Below are positions 498 through 15,078 of a stretch of DNA of 64,000 nt, piece by piece (positions within the stretch are counted from its first letter, which is position 1; the number at the start of each line of letters is the position of its first letter). Position numbers and translations under genes: made by a program. The notes below the pieces were generated by a model. That model worked only from the letters and a program-made list of their open reading frames with translations. It was not told where the DNA came from and did no database searches. Origin of the DNA: Anaerolineae bacterium. Lineage in GTDB: Bacteria > Chloroflexota > Anaerolineae > Aggregatilineales > Phototrophicaceae. Where the stretch lies: positions 53,119-117,118 of the forward strand of contig JALHNB010000016.1 in assembly GCA_022843745.1 (NCBI GenBank). The letters run 5' to 3'.

Positions 498-1556
498 TTA
501 GATTTCGTTGATAATCGCCTGTGCGAATTCGTTTGTGCTCTGATATTCACTGCCACGCGGCACAAGATCAGCCGTGCGTGCGCCGGAATCCAGCACTTTT
601 TCGACGGCCTTCTCAATCGCTTGCGCCTCATTTTCCAATCCCAGGCTGTAACGCAGCAGCATGGCGGCGCTCAAAATCGTGCCTGTTGGATTCGCCTTAC
701 CCTGACCAGCAATATCCGGCGCAGTGCCGTGAATCGGCTCGTATAGGCCGAATTTCCCCGATCCAAGCGAAGCTGACGGAGCCATTCCGAGCGAACCAGA
801 CATTACTGATGCCTCATCCGTCAGAATATCACCAAACATATTGCTGGCGACAACGACATCGAAACTGGCAGGACGGGTCAGCAAGTGCATCGTGCAGGCA
901 TCCACCAGCAGATGCTCAAGCTCCACATCAGCATAATCATCGTGCAGTTCAATGACAGCCTTACGCCACAGACGGCTGGAAGCCAGAATGTTGAATTTGT
1001 CCACCGAGGTCAGGCGGTTACGCCGTCCCTGTGCGGCGCGGAAAGCCACATTCGCCACGCGCTCAACTTCCGCCACACTGTAAATTTCGGTGTCATAGGC
1101 GGAGTCGCTATCGCCCTGCTCGCGACGCTCACCAAAATAGATGCCACCCGTCAGTTCGCGAATGAACAGCATATCCACGCCTTCGAGTAATTCCGGACGC
1201 AGCGGCGTGTTGTTGATGAGCGATTTATAGACTTTTACCGGACGCAGATTGGCGAACAGGTCAAAATGCTTGCGCATCTTGAGCAAACCGAGTTCCGGGC
1301 GAGGGCCACCGGGGACATCCCACTTCGGCCCGCCTACCGCGCCGAGCAGAATCGCGTCAGATTGTTCACCCAGGCGCAGTGTCTCATCCGGCAGCGGGTC
1401 GCCATACATATCAATGGCGATGCCGCCCATGATCGCTTCATTAAACGTAAATTCATGCCCATACTTGCTGGCAACTTTTTGAAGCACTTCAACGGATTTT
1501 CCGATCACTTCCGGCCCAATTCCATCGCCGGGAAGCACCATAATACTTGCTTTCAT
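498..1556 (-). CDS. leuB: 3-isopropylmalate dehydrogenase
   Basis: Oxidatively decarboxylates 3-isopropylmalate to 2-oxoisocaproate in leucine synthesis; with CimA in the same operon it should also act on 3-methylmalate to give 2-oxobutyrate for isoleucine. The 352-residue product has the LPGDGIGPEV start, a metal-binding block (NMFGDILTDEASV) and the nucleotide-binding EPIHGTAPDIAGQGKANP. The usual SVDKANVL catalytic-lysine segment reads SVDKFNIL here, a mild change next to the lysine. An upstream in-frame ATG at 1601 exists, but the ATG at 1556 is preceded by GAGGAG and matches the family N-terminus. Last gene of the ilv-leu operon, 77 bases after the cupin gene. Confidence 0.97.
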   Translation of the reverse strand: MKASIMVLPGDGIGPEVIGKSVEVLQKVASKYGHEFTFNEAIMGGIAIDMYGDPLPDETLRLGEQSDAILLGAVGGPKWDVPGGPRPELGLLKMRKHFDLFANLRPVKVYKSLINNTPLRPELLEGVDMLFIRELTGGIYFGERREQGDSDSAYDTEIYSVAEVERVANVAFRAAQGRRNRLTSVDKFNILASSRLWRKAVIELHDDYADVELEHLLVDACTMHLLTRPASFDVVVASNMFGDILTDEASVMSGSLGMAPSASLGSGKFGLYEPIHGTAPDIAGQGKANPTGTILSAAMLLRYSLGLENEAQAIEKAVEKVLDSGARTADLVPRGSEYQSTNEFAQAIINEI

Positions 1557-1633
1557 GTACCTACTCCTCATAAAAATGGGTCGAGAGCATACCCGACCCA
1601 CACCAATTCACATAGGGTGATTTTCCGTAACCT

Positions 1634-2005: not shown

Positions 2006-2740
2006 TTATTCACCTGATTTATTTGCTATCGCTTTTAGCATCGCTTTGACGGATTTTGCAATCGCACCCGGCCCCGGCAGTGGATTGCTCCATAACGTTT
2101 GGACATGCAAAACCAATCCTGGAAACAGCGGTGTCCGATAATTCCCTCGCTCATCTTCGGTCTGGCGTTCGTAACGCCCTTCGGCATTTAAGCGATAAAA
2201 ACGGCTCTCTTTTCGCAGGGGATCAACAATCCAATATTCACTAACTCCGCCTTTTTCGTACTCATTGAATTTATCGCCGTGATCGCGCCCTACACTCTCC
2301 TCGGACACGATTTCGATGCACAAATCGGCGGGGCCATCCACGTAGGTAGCCTTCAATTCATGCGGATTCGTTTTCAGGACGACCAACAAATCAGGTTCGC
2401 GGCGGCGATTTGGAAATTCAGGCAAGCGCATGACAAATGGCTGCAAAATCACCACGCCCATCGGTCTTAGCTCAAAATACGCATCAAAAAACTGCGACAA
2501 ATATTTGATGAGATTATTATGTCCGATAGTCGCCGGAGACATTTTGATGACGAATCCTTCTACCCATTCACAGTGATCGGCGGCATAATCACTCATATAA
2601 GTTTCCAGCGATACACTCGTCGCGATGATCTCACCGGAAGGCCAGGCCGGACCTTCTGTGTGCAAATGACGATAAAGCACGTCATATTCATCCGGAAGTA
2701 GAGAGTCGATTTGAGCAAGTAAATCCTGCAAATTTTGCAT
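2006..2740 (-). CDS. Uma2 family (DUF820) putative restriction endonuclease-like protein
   Basis: A 244-residue protein. Residues from about 35 to the end match the Uma2/DUF820 fold of the PD-(D/E)XK superfamily: REPDLLVVLK, then DLCIEIVSEES, then KFNEYEKGGVSEYWIVDP. These supply the acidic and lysine positions expected of the nuclease-like core. This family is greatly expanded in Cyanobacteria and Chloroflexota and its biological role is unknown. It lies between cimA and the cupin gene with short gaps, so it appears to have settled inside the amino-acid operon. It has no relation to BCAA synthesis that I can see. Confidence 0.85.
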   Translation of the reverse strand: MQNLQDLLAQIDSLLPDEYDVLYRHLHTEGPAWPSGEIIATSVSLETYMSDYAADHCEWVEGFVIKMSPATIGHNNLIKYLSQFFDAYFELRPMGVVILQPFVMRLPEFPNRRREPDLLVVLKTNPHELKATYVDGPADLCIEIVSEESVGRDHGDKFNEYEKGGVSEYWIVDPLRKESRFYRLNAEGRYERQTEDERGNYRTPLFPGLVLHVQTLWSNPLPGPGAIAKSVKAMLKAIANKSGE

Positions 2741-2761: not shown

Positions 2762-4351
2762 TTATGATTCGCCTATCGCGATGGGCTGGTCGCTTTCGGC
2801 AACGCACAGGCCATATTCCACACTGTCGACCAACGCCAGCCAGCTTGCGCGGATAATATTCGCGCCCGCGCCGACACTGCTCCAACGTTGCCGCCCATTC
2901 TGTGTGTCGATCAACACGCGCGTGACCGCCGCCGTGCCATTATTGCCATCGAGGATACGCACTTTATAATCAGCCAATTGAAAATCGGCAAGCTGCGGAT
3001 ACAGTGGAATGAGTGCTTTGCGCAGCGCGAGATCGAGCGCGTTGACCGGGCCATTCCCTTCCGCTGCCGTATGAACAACGTCGCCATTGATGTCGATTTT
3101 GACTGTTGCTTCGGCGACTGTGCCGCGTCCGCGTCGTTCCTCGACAATCGCCGTGAAGTCGATCAGTGTGAAAATCGGCTTGTAATCCGGCTGCGCACGA
3201 TAGAGGCGAACTGCAACAGAGGCTTCTGCGCCCTCAAAAACGAAGCCTTCATTTTCCAGCTCTTTAATTTCTTGCAGCACTTTTACCGCTTCGGCCTTCG
3301 TGACATCCAGGCCAAATTCTTCGGCTTTACTCAACAGATTACCTTGCCCCGAAAGATCGGACACCAGAATCCGCATTTCGTTGCCCACCAGAGTCGGCGT
3401 AATGTGCTGATAGCTGTCCACATTGCGCCGTATTGCCGCGACGTGGATGCCACCTTTATGCGCGAACGCACTTTTGCCAACATAAGCGAGGTGATCGTCC
3501 GGCGCGAGATTGGCAATTTCGGCAATCGTGCGGGAAAGCGCGGTCAAATGGCGTAAGTTTTCTTCCGACACGCAGGCATAGCCCATTTTCAACTGCAAAT
3601 CGGGGATGATGCTGCACAAATTCGCATTGCCACAGCGTTCACCATAGCCGTTAATCGTGCCTTGCACCTGCACCGCGCCCGCATCCACCGCCGCCAGCGT
3701 ATTGGCAACCGCCAGTTCGCCGTCATTATGGGTATGTATACCGATAGCCGTATTGGGAAAAGCTTCCTGCACCAAACGGACATAACGTGCGACTTCCCAG
3801 GGCAGTGAGCCGCCGTTGGTATCGCAGAGGACGACAATATCCGCGCCGCCTTCAATCGCCGCCCGCAGCGTGTCAAAACCGTATTCCAGGTCGAGCTTCA
3901 CGCCGTCGAAAAAATGCTCGGCATCGTAAATGACTTCTTTGCCGAGGTTCTTGAGATAGCGCAGGCTTTCGCGAATCATGCGCAGATTTTCGTCCGGCGT
4001 GGTTTGCAGCACATCGGTGACATGCAGCATCGACGTTTTGCCGACGACGGTGACAACAGGGGTTTGCGCATCCACAAGCGCTTTAATGTTTTCGTCCTGC
4101 GCCGGGTCAGCATTTTTGCGACAGGTCGCGCCGAACGCCGCGATTCGCGCATGTTTGAGATCGAGTTCGCGGACGGCCTCAAAATATCGCGCGTCTTTCG
4201 GATTCGAACCCGGCCAACCGCCCTCAATATACGCCACACCCAAGTTGTCCAGCAGCTTCGTAATTCGAATCTTGTCGGCAATCGACAGCGAAATCCCTTC
4301 GCGCTGTGTCCCGTCGCGTAATGTCGTATCGTATATGGCGATTGGCTTCAT
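2762..4351 (-). CDS. cimA: (R)-citramalate synthase
   Basis: Condenses pyruvate and acetyl-CoA to citramalate, the first step of threonine-independent isoleucine synthesis. The N-terminal DRE-TIM barrel shows IYDTTLRDGTQREGIS, the metal-binding HTHNDGELAVANT and the GYGERCGNANL loop; the C-terminal third is the LeuA-type regulatory domain. The insertion of REG where LeuA has SPG, and the length of about 529 residues, separate it from the leuA at 6751-8364. The chosen ATG has AGGAG 8 bases upstream; the ATG 6 bases further up is too close to it. CimA, LeuCD and LeuB together convert pyruvate to 2-oxobutyrate, which IlvB then uses. Confidence 0.93.
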   Translation of the reverse strand: MKPIAIYDTTLRDGTQREGISLSIADKIRITKLLDNLGVAYIEGGWPGSNPKDARYFEAVRELDLKHARIAAFGATCRKNADPAQDENIKALVDAQTPVVTVVGKTSMLHVTDVLQTTPDENLRMIRESLRYLKNLGKEVIYDAEHFFDGVKLDLEYGFDTLRAAIEGGADIVVLCDTNGGSLPWEVARYVRLVQEAFPNTAIGIHTHNDGELAVANTLAAVDAGAVQVQGTINGYGERCGNANLCSIIPDLQLKMGYACVSEENLRHLTALSRTIAEIANLAPDDHLAYVGKSAFAHKGGIHVAAIRRNVDSYQHITPTLVGNEMRILVSDLSGQGNLLSKAEEFGLDVTKAEAVKVLQEIKELENEGFVFEGAEASVAVRLYRAQPDYKPIFTLIDFTAIVEERRGRGTVAEATVKIDINGDVVHTAAEGNGPVNALDLALRKALIPLYPQLADFQLADYKVRILDGNNGTAAVTRVLIDTQNGRQRWSSVGAGANIIRASWLALVDSVEYGLCVAESDQPIAIGES

Positions 4352-4383
4352 GGTCATGTCTCCTGAAATCACCGATCAAAAAC

Positions 4384-4490: not shown

Positions 4491-5099
4491 TTACCCTACC
4501 GTATTCACCCGCGCGGCGTTCTCGCCTTCATACTCCCCAATGTGTGAGTCCAAACCCTGTAAGAACCCCAACTGATCGACACCGTTGAGCAGGCAGTATT
4601 TCGAAAAAGCGTCAATCGGGAATTTGACCGCACGTCCATCGGGCAGCGTGATCGACTGCGATTGCAAATCGACGGTGATTTGCGTGGACGGGTCTTCTTC
4701 AGCCAGGCTAATCAATTGCTGGTGCGTTTCGGCATCCACGACAATCGGCAGCAGGCCATTTTTCAGGGCGTTACCCTTGAAAATATCAGCGAAATAAGTG
4801 CTGACGACGGCCTGAAATCCCGCGCCAACCAGTGCCCAGGGAGCATGTTCGCGCGAACTGCCACAGCCAAAATTGTTGCCGCCGATAAGCACCTGCGCAC
4901 CCTGATGTTCTGGCTGATTTAGCACGAAATCCGGCTTGGGCGAACCATCGGCGTTATAGCGCCAGTCTGAAAACAGCGCCGAACCCAGTCCGGCCTTATC
5001 CGTCACTTTTAAGTAACGCGCCGGGATGATCTGATCGGTGTCGATGTCGTTCATCGGTAGCGCGGCAACTTTGCCTGTAAATTTCTTGATCGGTTCCAT
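4491..5099 (-). CDS. leuD: 3-isopropylmalate dehydratase, small subunit
   Basis: Small subunit of isopropylmalate isomerase; swivels over the LeuC iron-sulfur site and supplies substrate-binding residues. The 202-residue product shows MNDIDTDQIIPARYL near the N-terminus and the GGNNFGCGSSREHAPWAL block typical of LeuD. Length is normal. Its ATG shares one base with the leuC stop codon (TAATG), so the two subunits are almost certainly translationally coupled. With CimA present the LeuCD complex would isomerise both 2-isopropylmalate and citramalate. Confidence 0.96.
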   Translation of the reverse strand: MEPIKKFTGKVAALPMNDIDTDQIIPARYLKVTDKAGLGSALFSDWRYNADGSPKPDFVLNQPEHQGAQVLIGGNNFGCGSSREHAPWALVGAGFQAVVSTYFADIFKGNALKNGLLPIVVDAETHQQLISLAEEDPSTQITVDLQSQSITLPDGRAVKFPIDAFSKYCLLNGVDQLGFLQGLDSHIGEYEGENAARVNTVG

Positions 5100-6541
5100 T
5101 AGGCCATCTCCTTTTCCACCATTGCGCGGGGGTCGGTGACAACACCGTTGATCGCCGTCGCCACAGCCGTCAGCGGACTTGCCAAAAATGTGCGTCCGCC
5201 CTTGCCCTGACGACCTTCAAAATTGCGGTTACTGGTGCTGACCGCGTACTGCCCTGGCGCAAGCTGATCGCCGTTCATAGCAATGCACATCGAGCAGCCT
5301 GCCTCGCGCCATTCCGCGCCCGCCGCTTTGAAAATTTCGTGCAGCCCTTCGGCCTCGGCCTGCGCCTTGACCTGCTGCGAACCCGGCACGACCAGCATCC
5401 GAACGCTGTCCGCCACTTTATGCCCGCGAATCATGCCAGCCGCTTCGCGCAAATCCGAAATACGCGAGTTGGTGCAGCTTCCGACGAACACTACGTCAAC
5501 AGGCTTACCAATCAGACTTTGATTCGGCTGCAAATCCATATACTTCAGTGCCTTGTCGAGTGCGACTTTTTCATTCGGATCGCTCAGATCATCAGGATCA
5601 GGCACACGCGCGGTAATCGACATCCCCATGCCCGGATTCGTCCCGTAGGTAATCATTGGGGTCAATTCGTCGGCGTTCAAAGTGATTTCATGGTCAAAAA
5701 CTGCGCCTTCGTCGGTGGGCAGGGTGCGCCATTCCGCGACAGCCTTGTCCCAATCCGCGCCTTTAGGGGCATACGGGCGACCAGCGATGTAATCGAAGGT
5801 GGTTTCATCCGGCGCGATCATACCCGCCCGCGCACCACCTTCAATCGACATATTGCAGACGGTCATGCGGCCTTCCATGCTCAGGTTGCGGATCGCCTCG
5901 CCCATATATTCCAGGACATAGCCCGTGCCGCCACCAACGCCAATTTGTGCGATGATCGCCAGAATGATGTCTTTCGCGGTGATACCAGGCTGCAAGCGAC
6001 CATTGATGCGTACCGCCATTGTTTTCGGCTTGTTTTGCAGCAAACATTGAGTCGCCAAGACATGCGCGACTTCGCTCGTGCCGATGCCGAACGCCAACGC
6101 GCCAAACGCGCCGTGCGTGCTGGTGTGGCTGTCGCCGCAGACAATCGTCATTCCCGGCTGCGTGAATCCCTGCTCAGGGCCAATAACATGGACGATGCCC
6201 TGCTTATCGGAGCCGAGATCATAAAGCGGAATGCCGAAATCGTTACAATTTTTGCGCATCACGTCAAGCTGCGCGGCAGCCATCGGGTCGTTGATCGGGA
6301 TAATACCGTCGGCATTGCGCGGTGTGGTCGGTGTGCTGTGATCCATCGTCGCCAGTGTGCGATCTGGACGACGCACTTTCAGGCCGCGTTCCCGCAGCAC
6401 GGTAAATGCCTGTGGTGATGTGACCTCGTGAACCAGATGCAGGTCGATATAGAGTACCGCCGGGGTTTCCTCGGTTTGCGGACGAACAATATGTTTCGCC
6501 CAGACTTTCTCAAACAGCGTTTGCGGATTACTTCCTGTCAT
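5099..6541 (-). CDS. leuC: 3-isopropylmalate dehydratase, large subunit
   Basis: Aconitase-family large subunit holding the [4Fe-4S] cluster. The 480-residue protein begins with [11 protein letters not shown] and contains [21 protein letters not shown], and the cluster cysteines are visible in [14 protein letters not shown] and in the paired [13 protein letters not shown] near the C-terminus. The start at 6541 has an AAGGAA element upstream. It is the bacterial long LeuC, not the archaeal-type homoaconitase. The gene overlaps leuD by one base downstream and is separated from leuA by a hairpin-forming repeat. Confidence 0.97.
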
Positions 6542-6750: not shown

Positions 6751-8364
6751 CTACTCTTTACTTGCCAGGTTCACCGTCGCGGCTTCACCTTCTGGCTTGC
6801 GTCCGCCGACACCCATCACCGCGATCATGCGATTGAGCGCGGCCAGATACGCTTTGACGCTGGCGACGACAATATCAGAATCCGCGCCATAACCGCCAAA
6901 CGAACGATGATCGTCTTTGGCAGCAATTCGCACGGTCACTTCACCGAGCGCGTCAATACCCTCGGTGACACTGTGGACGCTGTATTCGATGAGCGTGTTC
7001 GGCACTTTAACAATCGCATCAACCGCGCGGTAGCAGGCATCCACTGGCCCGGTGCCGACGGCAGCATGGATAAAGGTTTCGCCGTTGGCGCTGCGCATTT
7101 TGGCTGTCGCCGTTGGCATTCCCATCGTGCCGCAGACCACCTGAATCTCCTCCAGGCTGAAAATTTCCTCTGGCTTCTCGAATTCATCTGCCATCAGCGC
7201 TTGCAGATCGGCATCAGTCACATTTTTCTTGGCATCCGCGAGTCCTTTAAAACGCGCGAAAACCTGATTCAGCGCGTCGCCCTCGACGTTATAGCCCAAT
7301 TCTTGAAGGCGGGTTTTGAGCGCGTGCCGTCCACTGTGCTTGCCCAGCACGAGTTGACTCTGTGACAGGCCGACACTTTCCGGTGTCATGATCTCATACG
7401 TCGCGGCATTTTTCAGCACGCCGTCCTGATGGATTCCAGCTTCGTGGGCGAAGGCATTCGCGCCGACAATCGCTTTGTTGGCCTGGACGTTCATCCCGGT
7501 ATAGTTGCTGACCATGCGGCTGGTCTTCATCAGCTCGTGAGAGTTAATATTCGTCTGAATATTGTAAAATTGTGGGCGTGTGCGCAGCGCCATGACGACT
7601 TCTTCCAGGCTGGTATTGCCCGCGCGTTCGCCGATGCCGTTAATCGTGACTTCGACCTGCCGTGCGCCACCCATGACTCCCGCCAGCGTGTTTGCCGTCG
7701 CCAGACCGAGGTCGTTATGGCAGTGAACCGACCAGATGACACCGCTACCCGGCCCTGCACCCGGCGTTTCGGCGATCAGATTAGCGATCTTTTCTTGCCA
7801 TTCCTGGGGCGTGACATAGCCAACGGTATCGGGAATATTCAGCGTGGTCGCGCCGCATTCGACGGCAACCGTACACGCTTGAATCAGATAATCCATATCG
7901 GTGCGTCCGGCATCCATTGGGCTGAATTCAACGTCGTCGCACAGGCTTCGCGCTAATGTGACCGCCTCACGAATACGTTCCAGTCCTTGTTCACGGGTCA
8001 GACCTGTTTGATATTGGAGATGGAGATCGGATGTACCCAGGAAAGTGTGAATACGCGGCTTGGCGGCATCCTTGACACCTTCCCAGCAGGCGCGAATGTC
8101 TTTATCGACTGCGCGTGAGAGGCCACAGATGATCGGGCCATCAGCAGTGCCAACTTCGCGAGCGATGCGCTGTACAGCAGCCATATCGTCTGGAGAGGCC
8201 GCTGGGAAGCCCGCTTCAATAATATCCACGCCCAGCTTAGCAAGCTGCCGCGCGATTTCCAGCTTTTCTGCACTGCTCAGTGTTGCGCCGGGGCTTTGTT
8301 CGCCGTCGCGCAGCGTGGTATCAAAAACGCGAATTACATTGGGGTCAATCGTATTATTGGACAT
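6751..8364 (-). CDS. leuA: 2-isopropylmalate synthase
   Basis: Condenses acetyl-CoA and 2-oxoisovalerate, the committed step to leucine. The 537-residue protein has the [16 protein letters not shown] signature at residues 15-30, the metal-binding [13 protein letters not shown], and [18 protein letters not shown]; roughly residues 400-537 form the C-terminal allosteric domain through which leucine normally inhibits. Length and motifs fit the LeuA type 1 family and differ from CimA in this operon. The Shine-Dalgarno upstream of the ATG is weak. It follows the GNAT gene by 105 bases and precedes leuC. Confidence 0.97.
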
Positions 8365-8469: not shown

Positions 8470-8979
8470 TCATCCATCGGTGGCAATCCTCAAAATCATC
8501 CATTCAATATCAAAATACTGGTCGCCCACTTTGATATAGCGCGGGTCGATACTATAGGGCGTAAAACCCGCCTTGAGATAAATATGCCGGGCTGCATCGT
8601 TGCCGACTGTAACCGCGAGGCTCACGTCTTCCAGTCCATCCATCGAGTGTGCGCTCTCCATCAAGGCATCCATAAGCGCTTGTCCACATTTCTCGCCGCG
8701 AGCTTCGGGGACAACGTACATCCCCGAAACCATCGCGCGATGGCGTGTTTTCATGCCGGGAGAGCGCATCAACCCCGCAACGCCCAAAAGTTGGTCATCA
8801 CGAAAAGCGCCAAACCAGGGACGACTGGAAACTGATAAAATCTGCGCGTATTGTTCCAGCGACATCGTGACCTCTTCCTCAAAAGAAGACCCGAATGCTT
8901 CAGGGTGATCTTTTAAGGCGCGGAGTCGCAATGCCTGGAATGCAGCAGTATCAACTTCTGTCAGTACCCGGACACTCAC
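8470..8979 (-). CDS. GNAT-family N-acetyltransferase
   Basis: A 169-residue acetyltransferase. The acetyl-CoA loop is visible as VVPEARGEKCGQALMDALM, followed by the strand-helix VSLAVTVGNDAARHIYLKAGFTPY, both typical of GNAT enzymes. The N-terminal segment FQALRLRALKDHPEAFGSSFEEE is the form found in small-molecule GNATs. It begins 5 bases after ilvC ends, so it is part of the BCAA operon transcript. The substrate is unknown and there is no obvious link to amino-acid synthesis. Confidence 0.85.
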   Translation of the reverse strand: MSVRVLTEVDTAAFQALRLRALKDHPEAFGSSFEEEVTMSLEQYAQILSVSSRPWFGAFRDDQLLGVAGLMRSPGMKTRHRAMVSGMYVVPEARGEKCGQALMDALMESAHSMDGLEDVSLAVTVGNDAARHIYLKAGFTPYSIDPRYIKVGDQYFDIEWMILRIATDG

Positions 8980-8984
8980 AATAA

Positions 8985-9995
8985 TTAGTCCTGTTGTTTA
9001 ATCCGTTTGGCGTTCAGGAATGTCATCATATCGCGCAGATCGCCGCCGACTTTTTCGAGCAGCAGATCGTGTTCCTGATGACGGCGCGGCAGGAAATTCG
9101 GACGGCCATTTTTGTTCTCGGCGATCCATTCGTTGGCAAATGTGCCATCCTGAATGCGCTTGAGAACGCCGTCGAGTTCTTCCTTGACCAGACCTTCGAT
9201 CTCGTCACCAACGGTATAGCCGCCGTATTCTGCGGTATCGCTCACGCTGTACCACATGTAGCTCAGGCCGCCCTGATAAAGCAGATCGACGATCAGCTTG
9301 AGTTCGTGCATACATTCGAAATAGGCGATTTCCGGCTGATAGCCTGCCTTCACCAGCGTTTCGAAGGCTGCGCGAATGAGAGCTGTTACGCCGCCGCAGA
9401 GAATGACCTGTTCGCCAAAGAGATCGGTTTCAGTTTCTTCTTTGAAGGTCGTCTCGATAATGCCCGCGCGTGAGCAGCCAATCGCTTTGCCGTAGGCCAG
9501 CGCCAATGCTTTCGCATTTCCGGTAGCATCCTGCGCGACAGCGACCAGACCCGGCGTACCAGCACCTTCTTTAAAGACTTCGCGGACGCGATGCCCTGGG
9601 GCTTTCGGCGCGATCATCGTGACATCAATGTTGGCGGGTGGCTGAATTTGCTTGAAGTGAATATTAAAACCATGCGCGAACATCAACATGCTGCCCGGCT
9701 TCAGATTGGGGCCGACTTCCTCATCATAGACTTTCGCCTGAGTCGTGTCCGGAGTCAGGATCATAATCACGTCCGATGCTTTGGTCGCGTCGCCAACGGA
9801 CATCACCTGCAAGCCATCTGCTTCGGCCTTTGCGCGGCTTTTGCTGCCGGGGTGCAGCCCGACAACCACATTCATGCCGCTGTCTTTGGCGTTGAGCGCG
9901 TGCGCATGTCCCTGGCTGCCGTAGCCAATGATGGCGATGGTCTTGCCCTTCAGCAAGCCAAGATCGGCGTCTTTATCGTAATACAGTGTTGCCAT
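8985..9995 (-). CDS. ilvC: Ketol-acid reductoisomerase
   Basis: Converts acetolactate or acetohydroxybutyrate to the dihydroxy acid using NAD(P)H and Mg2+. A class I enzyme of 336 residues: Rossmann motif [14 protein letters not shown], coenzyme-specificity loop containing HPGSKSR (the Ser and Arg residues point to NADPH), catalytic HGFNIHF, and the C-terminal knotted domain with ETDLFGEQ and SDTAEYGG. It follows ilvN, separated by a spacer containing a 28-bp perfect palindrome. ilvD, the next enzyme in the pathway, is not in this window. Confidence 0.97.
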
Positions 9996-10151: not shown

Positions 10152-10712
10152 TTATACCCCAATCCGTTCAGCATTGTTGGTGGTAATCCGTACAGCCGGT
10201 TCATAATCGCTGTCGAGGATGCGTGTCCCGCGTCCCATCGCGACCACGCCTGTACGCACCATTTCAACGATGCCAATCGGCTTCAGCTCCTCGATCATCG
10301 CCTCAACCACGTCTTCTTGCGCCGTGATTTCCAGAATCGCCACTTTCGTGCCAATATCGACGATACGCGCTGGATAGCGTTCGCAAATCATCGTCACGCT
10401 GTTACGGGAATCCACATCGTCCGTGCGCACCTTAATCAGCGCCAGATCGCGGCTGACATCCGGCTCTTGAGAAATCACGCGCACGTCGATGACGTTAATC
10501 AGCTTGAGCAGATTCGCCGCCACAACGCGCACATCATGACGCTGCACATCGACCACGATGGTCATACGCGAAATATGGGGCTTGTGAGTTCGCCCAACTG
10601 TGAGGCTGTCTACGTTGAAGTTACGGCGGCGAAACAGGCTGACGACACGGTTGAGAACGCCCGGCTTGTTTTCCACCAGCACCGCTAATGTTTGTCTGTT
10701 TTCTTGCTGCAT
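10152..10712 (-). CDS. ilvN: Acetolactate synthase, small regulatory subunit
   Basis: Regulatory subunit of acetohydroxyacid synthase; binds valine-type effectors and activates the IlvB catalytic subunit. The 186-residue protein begins with an ACT domain (TLAVLVENKPGVLNRVVSLF, then RRNFNVDSLTVG), followed by the AHAS small-subunit C-terminal domain. Length is that of the longer two-domain family, as in IlvH or IlvN of non-enteric bacteria. Its ATG lies 3 bases after the ilvB stop, so the two subunits are coupled. Confidence 0.96.
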   Translation of the reverse strand: MQQENRQTLAVLVENKPGVLNRVVSLFRRRNFNVDSLTVGRTHKPHISRMTIVVDVQRHDVRVVAANLLKLINVIDVRVISQEPDVSRDLALIKVRTDDVDSRNSVTMICERYPARIVDIGTKVAILEITAQEDVVEAMIEELKPIGIVEMVRTGVVAMGRGTRILDSDYEPAVRITTNNAERIGV

Positions 10713-10715
10713 GAT

Positions 10716-12416
10716 TTATCGACTTTCCCCTGGTTTCGGACGGCGAATCATATTGTGCAAATCGGCTCCCGCTGGAACCATCGGATAGACGATTTCTTCT
10801 TTTTCGATCACGTACTCGATGAGCACTGGTCCCTTGATGCTGCGGGCAAACGCAACGGATTCTTCGACCTGTTCGCGCTTGGTCACACGCATACTGGGGA
10901 TGCCAAACGCATCGGCAAGCTTGCAAAAATCAGGGTTGACCATCGGCGTGGACTGGTAACGCTCCTCGTAGAAAAATTCCTGCCACTGGCGCACCATGCC
11001 CAGATAAGCATTGTTGAGGATGGCGATATTCACGTCGATATTTTCCTGAACCGCCGTCGCCAGCTCGCACATGGTCATCTGGAAGCCGCCGTCGCCCACA
11101 ATCGCCCAGACTTCTTCTTCTGGCTTGCCGAATTTCGCGCCAATTGCTGCCGGGAAGCCAAAGCCCATCGTCCCCAGTCCACCGCTGGTAATCAGCGATG
11201 ACGGACGCTGGTGCGGGTAATACTGCGCTTCCAACATCTGGTGCTGGCCTACGTCAGTCACCGTAACGGCATTTCCGCCTGTGAACTGCCACAGATCGTT
11301 AATCACCTGTGCGCCCAGCAGTTTGCTATCGGCGCTGTACTGGAGAATGTCGCGTTCGTCAGCGTCCTCCTGCCAATCGCGAATCCAGGCCATCCAGTCG
11401 GGATGCTGTGTGCGATGGACGTGCGGCAGCATTTGCGACAAAACGGCTCGCACATCGCCGGGGATGCCGACATTGACGCGCACATTTTTATTGATTTCCG
11501 ACGGGTCAATATCAACGTGAATTTTCTTGGCCTTCTGCGCATACGTTTTCAGATTGCCCGTCACGCGGTCATCGAAACGCATTCCCAGAGCGATCAACAA
11601 GTCTGCTTCCTGAATAGCATGGTTAGAAGCCGCCTCACCGTGCATACCCATCATGCCCAGCACCATCGGATGATCTTCGGGCATTGCACCTTTACCCAGC
11701 AGCGTGAGTGCCACTGGAATGCCTGCGATTTCGGAGAGTTCGCGAAGCTGTTCCGACGCGCCAGCCATCATAATGCCATGTCCAGCCAGGATAATCGGGC
11801 GCTGCGCCTGATTAATGAGATCGACTGCCAACATCACATCATCTTCGTGGCCTTCAGATGGCACACGATACCCCGGCAGACGAATCTCACCTTCAGGGTA
11901 AATGAACTCGGTCTTTTGAGTTTGAACATCTTTGGGAATATCAATCAGCACTGGCCCTGGTCGTCCACTGCGAGCGATATGGAAGGCTTCGCGAATCACA
12001 TAGGCCAATTCCTCCACATCCGCTACCAGATAATTGTGTTTGGTAACGGGCAGTGTGACACCTGTTACGTCGGTTTCCTGAAACGCATCCGTCCCGATAG
12101 AGCCGCGTGCAACCTGCCCGGTGATGCACACAATCGGCGAGGAGTCCATCATAGCTGTCGCGATTCCGGTTACAAGATTGGTCGCGCCGGGGCCGCTGGT
12201 CGCAATCGCCACGCCAACTTTTCCCGTTGCCCGCGCATAACCATCCGCCATGTGCGATGCACCCTGTTCGTGGCGTACCAGCACATGATGAATCTGGGGA
12301 TATTTGGTCATCGCATCATAGGTCGGCAAGATCGCGCCGCCGGGATAGCCAAAAATAACATCTACACCTTCACGTATCAAACATTCCATTACAATCTCAG
12401 AGCCAGTCAATAACAT
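10716..12416 (-). CDS. ilvB: Acetolactate synthase, large catalytic subunit
   Basis: Thiamine-diphosphate enzyme that makes acetolactate (valine, leucine) and acetohydroxybutyrate (isoleucine). The 566-residue product has the N-terminal ThDP domain with the catalytic glutamate in VLVRHEQGASHMADGYARA, the central FAD-binding domain, and the C-terminal ThDP/Mg site, visible as the VGDGGFQMTMCEL block and NAYLGMVRQWQEFFYEERY. Length matches the bacterial biosynthetic AHAS. It is preceded by ilvE with a 23-base gap and followed at once by ilvN. Confidence 0.97.
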   Translation of the reverse strand: MLLTGSEIVMECLIREGVDVIFGYPGGAILPTYDAMTKYPQIHHVLVRHEQGASHMADGYARATGKVGVAIATSGPGATNLVTGIATAMMDSSPIVCITGQVARGSIGTDAFQETDVTGVTLPVTKHNYLVADVEELAYVIREAFHIARSGRPGPVLIDIPKDVQTQKTEFIYPEGEIRLPGYRVPSEGHEDDVMLAVDLINQAQRPIILAGHGIMMAGASEQLRELSEIAGIPVALTLLGKGAMPEDHPMVLGMMGMHGEAASNHAIQEADLLIALGMRFDDRVTGNLKTYAQKAKKIHVDIDPSEINKNVRVNVGIPGDVRAVLSQMLPHVHRTQHPDWMAWIRDWQEDADERDILQYSADSKLLGAQVINDLWQFTGGNAVTVTDVGQHQMLEAQYYPHQRPSSLITSGGLGTMGFGFPAAIGAKFGKPEEEVWAIVGDGGFQMTMCELATAVQENIDVNIAILNNAYLGMVRQWQEFFYEERYQSTPMVNPDFCKLADAFGIPSMRVTKREQVEESVAFARSIKGPVLIEYVIEKEEIVYPMVPAGADLHNMIRRPKPGESR

Positions 12417-12439: not shown

Positions 12440-13375
12440 CTACTTGGCCGCTGGTTCAGACTGACGCACATGGGTGAGCCAGCCGTATTTATCCGGTTTT
12501 TGGCCGGATGTAATCGCGAAAAATTCATCCTGCACCGCTTTCGTGATCGGCCCGCGCTTGCCCGCGCCAATCTGAATGCGATCCACTGAACGAATGGGGC
12601 TGATTTCTGCTGCCGTACCTGTAAAGAAAATTTCGTCCGCGATGTACAGCATATCGCGCGAAATTGTTTCGAAGCGCACCTCGTAGCCCAGGTCTTTTAA
12701 AAGCGTCACAACGCTGTCGCGGGTGATGCCCATCAAAATACTCGACCCGATACCCGGCGTATAAACAACGTTGTTGTAAATGACAAAAATATTTTCGCCC
12801 GCGCCCTCACTAACGCTGCCATTATAGTCCAGCGCGATGCCTTCGCTGAAGCCGTTGTCGTGCGCTTCCATGCTGATAAACTGGCTGTTCACGTACTGAC
12901 CGCCAATTTTCGCGAGTGAAGCCGAAGTATCCGGCGCGGTACGTCGCCATGAACTGACCTGCACATCAACGCCGCCTTCGATGGCTTCCTGCCCCAGATA
13001 GCGTCCCCACTCCATCGTGAAGATGACGGCATCTACCTGATTTTTGCGCCCTTCCACACCTAGCGGCCCTGCTCCCCGGAAGATCAGCGGGCGAATGTAG
13101 CAGGCTTCGTGCTTGTTCCGCGCGATAATTTCGATAATCGCGGCGTTGATCTCATCTTCGGTAAATGGTGATTGAATACGCGCGATCTTGCACGAATTCA
13201 GCAAGCGTTTTGTATGTGGCTGAAGTCGAAACGCGGCTGGGCCTTCCGGCGTAGCATAGGCACGAACCCCTTCGAATACGCTCGAACCGTAATGCAGCGC
13301 GTGTGTGGTTACGTGCACATTGGCTTCATTCCACTTGATAAACTCACCATTCATCCAAACCCATTCGGTTGCCAT
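12440..13375 (-). CDS. ilvE: Branched-chain amino-acid aminotransferase
   Basis: PLP enzyme of fold type IV that performs the last transamination to Val, Leu and Ile. The 311-residue protein shows VWMNGEFIKWNEANVHVTTHALHYGSSVFEGVRAY at its N-terminus (given by position only: residues 6-39), a likely PLP lysine in SLAKIGGQYVNS, the EGAGENIFV loop and EIFFTGTAAEISPI. The ATG has GAGGAA about 7 bases upstream. It is the first full-length gene of the operon, lying directly downstream of the attenuator at 13406-13551, so its expression should set that of the whole cluster. Confidence 0.96.
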   Translation of the reverse strand: MATEWVWMNGEFIKWNEANVHVTTHALHYGSSVFEGVRAYATPEGPAAFRLQPHTKRLLNSCKIARIQSPFTEDEINAAIIEIIARNKHEACYIRPLIFRGAGPLGVEGRKNQVDAVIFTMEWGRYLGQEAIEGGVDVQVSSWRRTAPDTSASLAKIGGQYVNSQFISMEAHDNGFSEGIALDYNGSVSEGAGENIFVIYNNVVYTPGIGSSILMGITRDSVVTLLKDLGYEVRFETISRDMLYIADEIFFTGTAAEISPIRSVDRIQIGAGKRGPITKAVQDEFFAITSGQKPDKYGWLTHVRQSEPAAK

Positions 13376-13405
13376 TTTCAGTTCCTCGCATCCTCAAAAT
13401 ATAAA

Positions 13406-13429
13406 TAAAAAACCCCCAGGCTTGGGGGC
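13406..13429 (-). terminator. Intrinsic terminator of the ilv attenuator
   Basis: On the minus strand CCCCCA pairs with TGGGGG around an AGCC tetraloop, with an additional G-U pair outside, followed directly by six T residues and then ATTTA. It sits 31 bases upstream of ilvE and downstream of the leader peptide, so it can only stop transcription before the structural genes. That is the geometry of an attenuator. Confidence 0.88.
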
Positions 13430-13457
13430 TGTTTGCAGTCACACGTTATAGTCTACC

Positions 13458-13469
13458 GCCACCCAAGCC
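13458..13469 (-). promoter_or_regulatory. Antiterminator arm of the ilv attenuator
   Basis: The RNA segment GGCUUGGGUGGC starts one base after the leader stop codon. Its GGCUUGGG pairs perfectly with CCCAAGCC at 13419-13426, which is the 5' arm and loop of the terminator, and its GGC can pair with GCC at 13427-13429 after a one-base bulge. The two structures are mutually exclusive. A ribosome finishing at the stop codon would cover this arm; one stalled earlier would leave it free. A weaker partner (CCUUAGCC, 13515-13522) inside the leader coding region could serve as the arm that competes for it. Confidence 0.75.
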
Positions 13470-13470
13470 G

Positions 13471-13551
13471 TTATAACCCGCCAATAATAAGGACGAGTAC
13501 AATAACAAGAATAAGGCTAAGGACGACGTTCGAACGCAGTTGTTGCGACAT
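13471..13551 (-). CDS. ilv operon leader peptide (BCAA attenuator)
   Basis: A 26-codon ORF starting ATG TCG CAA CAA and ending in TAA. Residues 9-23 read VVLSLILVIVLVLII: 14 of 15 are Val (5), Leu (5) or Ile (4), followed by GGL. This composition matches the regulatory amino acids of the downstream genes, as in known ilv and leu leader peptides of enteric bacteria and actinobacteria. It lies between a promoter-like TTGACA and a terminator whose arm also pairs with the sequence just after the leader stop. The strong Shine-Dalgarno normally expected is not evident. The alternative is a tiny membrane peptide; the position and the RNA structures make regulation more likely. Confidence 0.8.
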   Translation of the reverse strand: MSQQLRSNVVLSLILVIVLVLIIGGL

Positions 13552-13588
13552 TTAAATGCTTCAATTCGAAATTCAGACTTATTACGAT

Positions 13589-13617
13589 AGGTTAACCAGC
13601 ATTTGCTTTAGTGTCAA
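13589..13617 (-). promoter_or_regulatory. Candidate promoter of the ilv-leu operon
   Basis: A perfect -35 hexamer TTGACA (13612-13617, minus strand) is followed after 17 bases by TAACCT (13589-13594), a weak -10. Initiation near 13582 would give a leader of about 30 bases before the leader peptide ATG. Read-through from argH, upstream on the same strand, cannot be ruled out. Confidence 0.45.
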
Positions 13618-13698
13618 GAGTACCATGTGAAGATTGTGAGGAATGTCAGAAGTTCATATAGAATACCTGTGTGATTTTGTGATACATGCACAAGTATC

Positions 13699-15078
13699 TC
13701 ATAATTCATGTGTCTCCAGCCAGTTTTTCGCTGATGAGATTTGTTCCGCAACGGCTTCCGGCGCGGTGCCACCTTTTGCTTTGCGCCGCCCTACCGACTC
13801 ATCGAAATTAAATACGTCGGCGACATCGTCTTCAAATAGCTCCGATAATTCTTTCAGATGGCCCAGCGGAATCTGCGAAAGTTTGAGGCTATGCGTTGCC
13901 GACAAGCGCACGGCTTCGCCAATAATGTGATGCGCCTGACGAAATGGCAGCCCTTTACGGACCAGATAATCCGCCATATCGGTTGCCAGCATTTCCTCGT
14001 CGAGCGCGGCACGCATTTTTTCCGGCCTCGCCTGTAACGTGTTGATGATGGCTGTAACCACAGGCAGCAGCAATTTGATTGTGTCTACCGAATCAAAGAG
14101 CGCTTCTTTATCCTCTTGCAAGTCCTTATTGTAGGTACTGGGCAGACCCTTCAGGACGACCAGAATGCGTGTCAGATTCCCAATCAAGCGACCCGTTTTG
14201 CCACGCGCCAGTTCCATCGGGTCGGCATTACGCTTCTGCGGCATCAGGCTTGAACCTGTGCTGTAACGGTCATTCAATGTGATATAGCCAAATAACGGGT
14301 TGCTATAGATGATGACATCCTCGGCTAAACGGCTGAGATGCGCACCAGTGAGCGCCAGCGCGAACAACAGCTCGGCGACATAATCGCGATCACTGACAGC
14401 ATCCAGACTATTTTCGCTCACCGAATCAAATCCGAGGTCGGTGGCAAGCGCATCGCGATCAACCGCAAAAGGTGTCCCAGCTAACGCGCCCGAACCCAAC
14501 GGCGAAACCGATGTCCGGCGGCGCATATCCGATAAGCGTTCGCGATCCCGCGACAACATCCAGAAAAAGCTCATCAGCCAATGCGCCATCGTGATCGGCT
14601 GCGCGGGCTGCATATGGGTGTAACCGGGCATAACCGTATGAAGGTGCTTCTCGGCCTGCTCGACCAACCCAACTTGCAAACCCATCACCAGTTCGTCGAT
14701 TTCTTTTACCGCGTCCAGTGCCCACAAACGAAAATCCGTCGCCACCTGATCGTTACGACTACGCCCTGTGTGCAGCTTACCACCCAGCGGCCCGGTCAAT
14801 TCGATCAAACGTCGCTCGACAGCCGTGTGTATATCTTCATCGCCGGGTTTAAATTCAAATATTCCGTCGTCAAATTCGCCCAATATCTTATGCAGGCCAT
14901 CAATGATGCTGACAGCCTGAAGCGGATTGATCACACCCGCCGCCGCGATTGCCCGCGCATAAGCAATGCTCCCGGCAATATCCTGCGCGTACATGCGCTT
15001 ATCGAAGCCGATGCTGTCTTGCAGCGCCCGCATATCATCATCTGTCGGCTCCGAGAACCGCCCACCCCACAACGCCAT
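13699..15078 (-). CDS. argH: Argininosuccinate lyase
   Basis: Cleaves argininosuccinate to arginine and fumarate. The 459-residue protein begins ALWGGRFSEPTDD, carries HTGRSRNDQVATDFRLW with the substrate-binding residues, MPGYTHMQPAQPITMAHW, and the superfamily signature GSSLMPQKRNADPMELARG with the mobile catalytic serine loop. Length is normal. It lies downstream of argG on the same strand, separated by about 200 bases that contain a perfect palindrome, so the two genes may form one arginine transcript. Its stop is 148 bases upstream of the ilv leader start codon. Confidence 0.97.
   Translation of the reverse strand: MALWGGRFSEPTDDDMRALQDSIGFDKRMYAQDIAGSIAYARAIAAAGVINPLQAVSIIDGLHKILGEFDDGIFEFKPGDEDIHTAVERRLIELTGPLGGKLHTGRSRNDQVATDFRLWALDAVKEIDELVMGLQVGLVEQAEKHLHTVMPGYTHMQPAQPITMAHWLMSFFWMLSRDRERLSDMRRRTSVSPLGSGALAGTPFAVDRDALATDLGFDSVSENSLDAVSDRDYVAELLFALALTGAHLSRLAEDVIIYSNPLFGYITLNDRYSTGSSLMPQKRNADPMELARGKTGRLIGNLTRILVVLKGLPSTYNKDLQEDKEALFDSVDTIKLLLPVVTAIINTLQARPEKMRAALDEEMLATDMADYLVRKGLPFRQAHHIIGEAVRLSATHSLKLSQIPLGHLKELSELFEDDVADVFNFDESVGRRKAKGGTAPEAVAEQISSAKNWLETHEL

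Follow-up and report, generated by a model that had tools for sequence, protein, structure and literature searches.

In enteric bacteria, the ilvGMEDA and leuABCD operons of branched-chain amino acid (BCAA) synthesis are preceded by a Val/Leu/Ile-rich leader peptide (ilvL and leuL, respectively), a pause helix, an antiterminator and an intrinsic terminator. Candidate leaders have also been described upstream of ilvB in Corynebacterium, Mycobacterium and Streptomyces, where short ORFs with Ile/Val/Leu runs are found with terminators ahead of ilv genes; there the ORF is described as overlapping the terminator, and how regulation works was not resolved (PMC1262725). The same paper recounts that, in a look-alike ilvB leader of Streptomyces coelicolor, mutations in the candidate codons were without effect. 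An ilv-leu operon headed by a leader peptide and a terminator is also known from Staphylococcus aureus, but this ilvD attenuator contains mainly Leu codons, acts beside CodY and belongs to another phylum (PMC5794164). Apart from its own Firmicutes case, a survey published in 2010 knew of leader-peptide attenuation only in Proteobacteria and Actinobacteria (PMC2965389).

The locus described here lies in a 64 kb stretch of DNA, referred to below as the window, and carries a predicted attenuator made up of the same parts as the enteric ones. It differs from ilvL and leuL in that the first gene is ilvE and in that arm 2 starts 1 nt past the leader stop codon, and from the actinobacterial candidates in having a separate, covarying antiterminator. 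The general layout is also like that of the Rfam families Trp_leader and Phe_leader (RF00513 and RF01859), but the matches of the window (16.6 bits to Trp_leader, against a cut-off of 41) and of one relative (L045, sub-threshold to both families) fall far below the cut-offs, and the window leader lacks codons for Trp and Phe. As read from the sequence, this is a classical mechanism that is apparently new for Chloroflexota. No earlier report of leader-peptide attenuation in Chloroflexi/Chloroflexota was found in a literature search that lay outside the comparative survey of Lopatovskaya et al. 2010, and for that reason we make no firm claim to priority; the suggestion of an earlier note on this DNA, that attenuation is undescribed for the lineage, is contradicted by no paper within that search. 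A covariation-supported, phylum-wide example from Chloroflexota extends the range of the mechanism, and the covariance model built for it is ready for use in annotating unnamed small ORFs.

Leader ORF, RNA arms and promoter

The element and the genes that follow it are encoded on the minus strand (Table 1). A base-by-base check places a 26-codon ORF, encoding MSQQLRSNVVLSLILVIVLVLIIGGL, between an ATG at 13551 and a TAA at 13473-13471, with the single base C13470 separating the stop codon from arm 2. Within residues 9-23, VVLSLILVIVLVLII, 14 of the 15 are Val, Leu or Ile, and across all six frames of the window this is the sole place where 15 codons include at least 13 for these three amino acids. 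The run closes with Ile23, whose codon ends at 13483. Arm 2 starts 13 nt further on, and a ribosome stalled in the run would leave it free; taken from the sequence, this spacing is the layout expected of a classical attenuator.

Table 1. Positions in the window of the attenuator features, the promoter and the genes of the downstream cluster.
Feature	Coordinates	Strand	Evidence
Promoter -35 hexamer TTGACA	13612..13617	-	sequence; TTGACn-N16..18-TAnnnT in relatives
Promoter -10 hexamer TAACCT, 17-nt spacer, weak TATAAT match	13589..13594	-	comparison
Leader peptide ORF MSQQLRSNVVLSLILVIVLVLIIGGL, with stop	13471..13551	-	sequence; kept in 78/80 relatives (IlvE identity 66% or more)
Regulatory codon run, residues 9-23	13483..13527	-	14/15 Val/Leu/Ile
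Arm 1, 5' side of pause helix, within leader ORF	13515..13528	-	fold; beats synonymous resampling and swapped partners
Arm 2 GGCTTGGGTGGC, starting 1 nt past leader stop	13458..13469	-	sequence, comparison
Arm 3 GCCCCCAAGCC, antiterminator partner of arm 2 and terminator 5' side plus loop	13419..13429	-	fold, covariation
Intrinsic terminator stem-loop AGCCCCCAAGCCTGGGGGTT, arms 3 and 4	13411..13430	-	fold, terminator scan, stem covariation
Terminator T tract (T6)	13407..13412	-	sequence
ilvE, branched-chain aminotransferase	12440..13375	-	NF005146, E 9e-128
ilvB, acetolactate synthase large subunit	10716..12416	-	family match
ilvN, acetolactate synthase small subunit	10152..10712	-	family match
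ilvC, ketol-acid reductoisomerase	8985..9995	-	family match
Acetyltransferase-like ORF inside cluster	8470..8979	-	match below curated cut-offs
leuA, 2-isopropylmalate synthase	6751..8364	-	family match
leuC	5099..6541	-	family match
leuD	4491..5099	-	family match
cimA, citramalate synthase	2762..4372	-	family match
leuB, 3-isopropylmalate dehydrogenase	498..1601	-	TIGR00169, E 6e-145

The first part of arm 2, GGCTTGGG (13469-13462), and CCCAAGCC (13426-13419) are perfect complements. RNA folding extends this antiterminator helix by pairing GGC at 13460-13458 with GCC at 13429-13427, so that the antiterminator (-22.7 kcal/mol) takes up most of the 5' arm of the terminator. Inside the leader ORF, CCTTAGCC (13522-13515) can pair with the same part of arm 2 with one U-U mismatch and one G-U pair, and the predicted pause helix is longer than this, joining 13528-13515 to 13469-13457 (fold of the leader through arm 2, -28.6 kcal/mol, z -2.4). 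The terminator hairpin formed by arms 3 and 4 folds with -13.4 kcal/mol; its core, CCCCCAAGCCTGGGGG, occupies 13428-13413 and is followed directly by T6 at 13412-13407. It is the single terminator-like site between 13376 and 13700, where 0.1 would be expected. The locus holds the amino-acid-rich leader ORF, intrinsic terminator, exclusive antiterminator pairing and pause helix by which a classical attenuator is recognised. Every base checked agrees with the earlier note, which had described the leader ORF with its 14/15 run, the position of arm 2 one base after the stop, the perfect complementarity of the arms and the terminator.

That note had also placed the whole ilvE-leuB operon downstream. 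Gene order bears this out, and adds to the expected genes an acetyltransferase-like ORF, cimA and two ORFs (1634-1999 and 2006-2740, minus strand) without an NCBIfam match: moving 3' from the leader, whose stop codon lies 95 nt from ilvE, the order is ilvE, ilvB, ilvN, ilvC, the acetyltransferase-like ORF, leuA, leuC, leuD, cimA, the two ORFs and leuB. There is no ilvD among the cluster genes checked. The Aggregatilineales-like (Chloroflexota, Anaerolineae) assembly to which the window belongs comprises 7.96 Mb in 117 contigs, and the closest named relatives of its IlvE come from Anaerolineae and Aggregatilineales metagenome assemblies.

No promoter was found at the locus in a scan with a generic promoter consensus, and the conserved promoter is clear only by comparison with relatives, all 75 of which (of 75 tested) have TTGACn-N16..18-TAnnnT 5' of the leader, against 1.1% of shuffled sequences. 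The -10 box of the window leader is a poor match. Just about 40 nt lie between this box and the leader ORF, little room for the proposal that a T-box or other riboswitch, instead of a translated leader, controls the terminator. Five T-boxes do occur elsewhere in the same genome, on other contigs (L182-L186), before trpE, valS, trpS, thrS and pheS (genes named from their translated ORFs; one of the five lies below the gathering score). Across 13100-14000, however, no Rfam family matches above its cut-off and no T-box (RF00230) is present, and the conserved element is an ORF under reading-frame and codon constraint, such that we regard the riboswitch explanation as having a close to negligible chance of being correct. 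With a translated leader, this one genome has T-boxes at several tRNA-synthetase genes and trpE, and a leader peptide at its BCAA cluster; the coexistence of two tRNA-charge sensors is relevant to how one kind comes to take the place of the other.

Conservation and covariation among ilvE relatives

We compared 90 distinct ilvE upstream regions. A V/L/I-rich ORF with the arm-2 motif at, just before or right after its stop codon is present at 78 of the 80 loci whose IlvE is at least 66% identical, the window included, and the terminator is present in nearly all of these 78. The two exceptions are L040, whose contig stops 366 nt upstream, and L097. TTGGG starts 4 nt past the leader stop in 62/78 relatives, and an ATG lies 22-33 codons upstream of the stop in 71/78. 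Leader ORFs that extend through arm 2 also occur among the relatives, mainly in those outside the family. The conservation of leader frame, Val/Leu/Ile codons and arms that the earlier note proposed to look for in relatives is evident, as is covariation of the antiterminator arms, set out below. The attenuator is absent 5' of more distant ilvE genes (59-63% identity, in Caldilineaceae and others, and outside Chloroflexota). A V/L/I run at L104 was rejected as a leader, being the end of an ordinary gene. Two further loci deserve mention: at L102 (Centralia_MAG_208), upstream of an ilvE with 65% identity, the leader is divergent (VVSIVIIILTGLVSLILGSEG...) and comes with a terminator and a SPWTE-like ORF, and L052, from a record titled Pleurocapsa minor, has a Chloroflexota-type ilvE and attenuator, the title probably being wrong or the bin mixed.

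The helix between arms 2 and 3 covaries. Across 46 diverse sequences, 94.5% of cells are paired and double changes occur in five of the eight pairs; none of 500 shuffles was as good, and every slid register was clearly weaker. Compensatory examples are CCGTTTGGG/CCCAAACGG (L032), TCTTGGGAG/CTCCCAAGA (L027) and CTGGCTTGGG/CCCAAGCCAG (L035). Alignment A2, in which about five sequences are one out of register at arm 3, served for searching only and was excluded from these counts. Pairing in the terminator stem is maintained across C-G, T-A and G-C changes, although the stems were chosen for pairing and only the variety of pairs is informative. Support for the pause helix is statistical across relatives, and not pair-by-pair covariation: arm 1 pairs with arm 2 more strongly than synonymous codons would (mean z -0.73, Wilcoxon p 1e-6), and more strongly with its own arm 2 than with those of others (mean z -0.59, p 6e-5), both p values being too optimistic because the relatives are phylogenetically non-independent.

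The composition of the leader is equally distinctive. In relatives, the 16-residue core is 76% V+L+I and 9.5% Ser, with 2.7% Ala, 0.7% Phe and 0.2% Met (F+A+M total 3.6%), while the order of V, L and I within the run is free to vary. The avoidance of Phe, Ala and Met argues that the run is codon-driven and no generic membrane helix. It could be supposed instead that the product of the small ORF is a membrane peptide with a function of its own, made from the same transcript as ilvE, the hairpin being a partial terminator that sets their ratio. The peptide is indeed hydrophobic and about one membrane span long, and its ORF is conserved, but the core is unlike an ordinary membrane helix in composition, the order of its V, L and I residues varies freely, arms 2 and 3 covary, and arm 1 shows selection on its nucleotides; we consider this explanation very improbable. 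Returning to a leader read for its codons, CTT and CTC make up 81% of Leu codons in leaders compared to 25% in the window's nine ilv/leu/argH genes checked, a bias that may stem from the choice of tRNA, from keeping G out of the nascent RNA, or from the two together. The peptide of most relatives ends in ...VLVLII(G/S)GL or near it. At -2.5 kcal/mol, compared with -1.9 in shuffles and a mean of -7.6 at ilvE sites, the window leader has a weak ribosome-binding site; such weak sites are seen in the window's clade, and strong ones in relatives from other clades.

Proposed mechanism of control

Judging by these comparisons, transcription of the ilv-leu cluster is very likely governed by a classical attenuator of the ribosome-mediated kind. 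From the anatomy of the element, its conservation, the covariation of its arms and their spacing we infer translation of the leader, ribosome stalling, termination and a response to amino acids. With ample charged tRNA-Val, -Leu and -Ile, the leading ribosome would reach the leader stop; a ribosome footprint extends about 12 nt beyond the stop (PMC4833913), and here it would cover about 13470-13459, which is arm 2. Arms 3 and 4 would then form the terminator, and transcription would halt near 13407. A shortage of any one of the three charged tRNAs would stall the ribosome in codons 9-23, hiding arm 1, and arm 2 would be free to pair with arm 3, allowing transcription from ilvE onward. If the leader were not translated at all, arms 1 and 2 would pair and the terminator would form.

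A leader ORF this close to ilvE in the window might alternatively work at the level of translation, through coupling or through reinitiation of ribosomes at ilvE, instead of through termination of transcription, and leader ORFs are able to raise translation of the next gene (PMC4833913). Among relatives, however, the distance from leader to ilvE ranges from 92 to 422 nt, yet the terminator and its T tract are retained, and we judge such coupling very unlikely to be how the leader works.

Second hairpins and the range of the element in Chloroflexota

The leader stop lies more than 200 nt from ilvE in 50 relatives, and in 40 of these a second terminator-like hairpin was found (as just before ilvE at L045:7763-8000). 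A small ORF unrelated to BCAA, often encoding TSPWTE...PTHDALSxIYN, usually supplies the 5' arm of this hairpin (often GACGCGCTTTCC) with its 3' end, and its stop codon is usually located between the hairpin arms. The arms appear to vary together, for example ACGCGCCTATCGTC/GACGATAGGCGCGT (L011), in a search that selected for pairing. In E. coli pyrBI and pyrE, a ribosome finishing an ORF blocks a hairpin, and a ribosome finishing the second small ORF would similarly block the hairpin before ilvE. The window lacks the second hairpin, and a search of its whole genome did not recover the second small ORF or its peptide.

An RNA model of the element, searched against the window's own genome, gave the window site as its sole match; a looser model (R2) gave a second match there (C15), which was rejected as a tandem GTCATC-type repeat with V/I runs. 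Among 400 Chloroflexota genomes, a model of the window family found matches in 25. A broader model that includes matches from other families gave candidates in 117 of the 400 genomes and 69 of 225 genera (E 0.01); the weakest of these matches were partly inspected and at least one own-genome match is false, so that the true share at E 0.01 is somewhat lower, and the search filters also drop weak true attenuators. The inspected matches of the broader model, from other families and classes, lie mostly 5' of ilvB or ilvD, as assigned from reading translations. These candidates retain the logic of the element with different arms, such as CCGTTTAGGA/TCCTAAACGG, TGGTTAGG/CCTAACCA and CTGTTGGG/CCCAACAG. 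Possibly, and we offer this tentatively, Chloroflexota have a phylum-wide BCAA attenuator lineage of their own before ilvE, ilvB or ilvD operons, to which many relatives in the window's family then add a second, translation-coupled terminator, giving a two-step attenuator that reads a second signal; the window's genome would have lost the second step or never had it.

Candidate attenuators before ilvB or ilvD are seen at L120-L140 and L171-L181, and in several of them the leader ORF crosses arm 2 (...FLVRMA..., ...PFRMATCQA). An R1 match at L138 was rejected as a leader, being the end of a membrane protein, and the R2 match at L178 is weak. At L171 and L172 (G135, G428), two attenuator-like elements are found about 1 kb apart in one genome region, possibly providing separate control of neighbouring BCAA genes.
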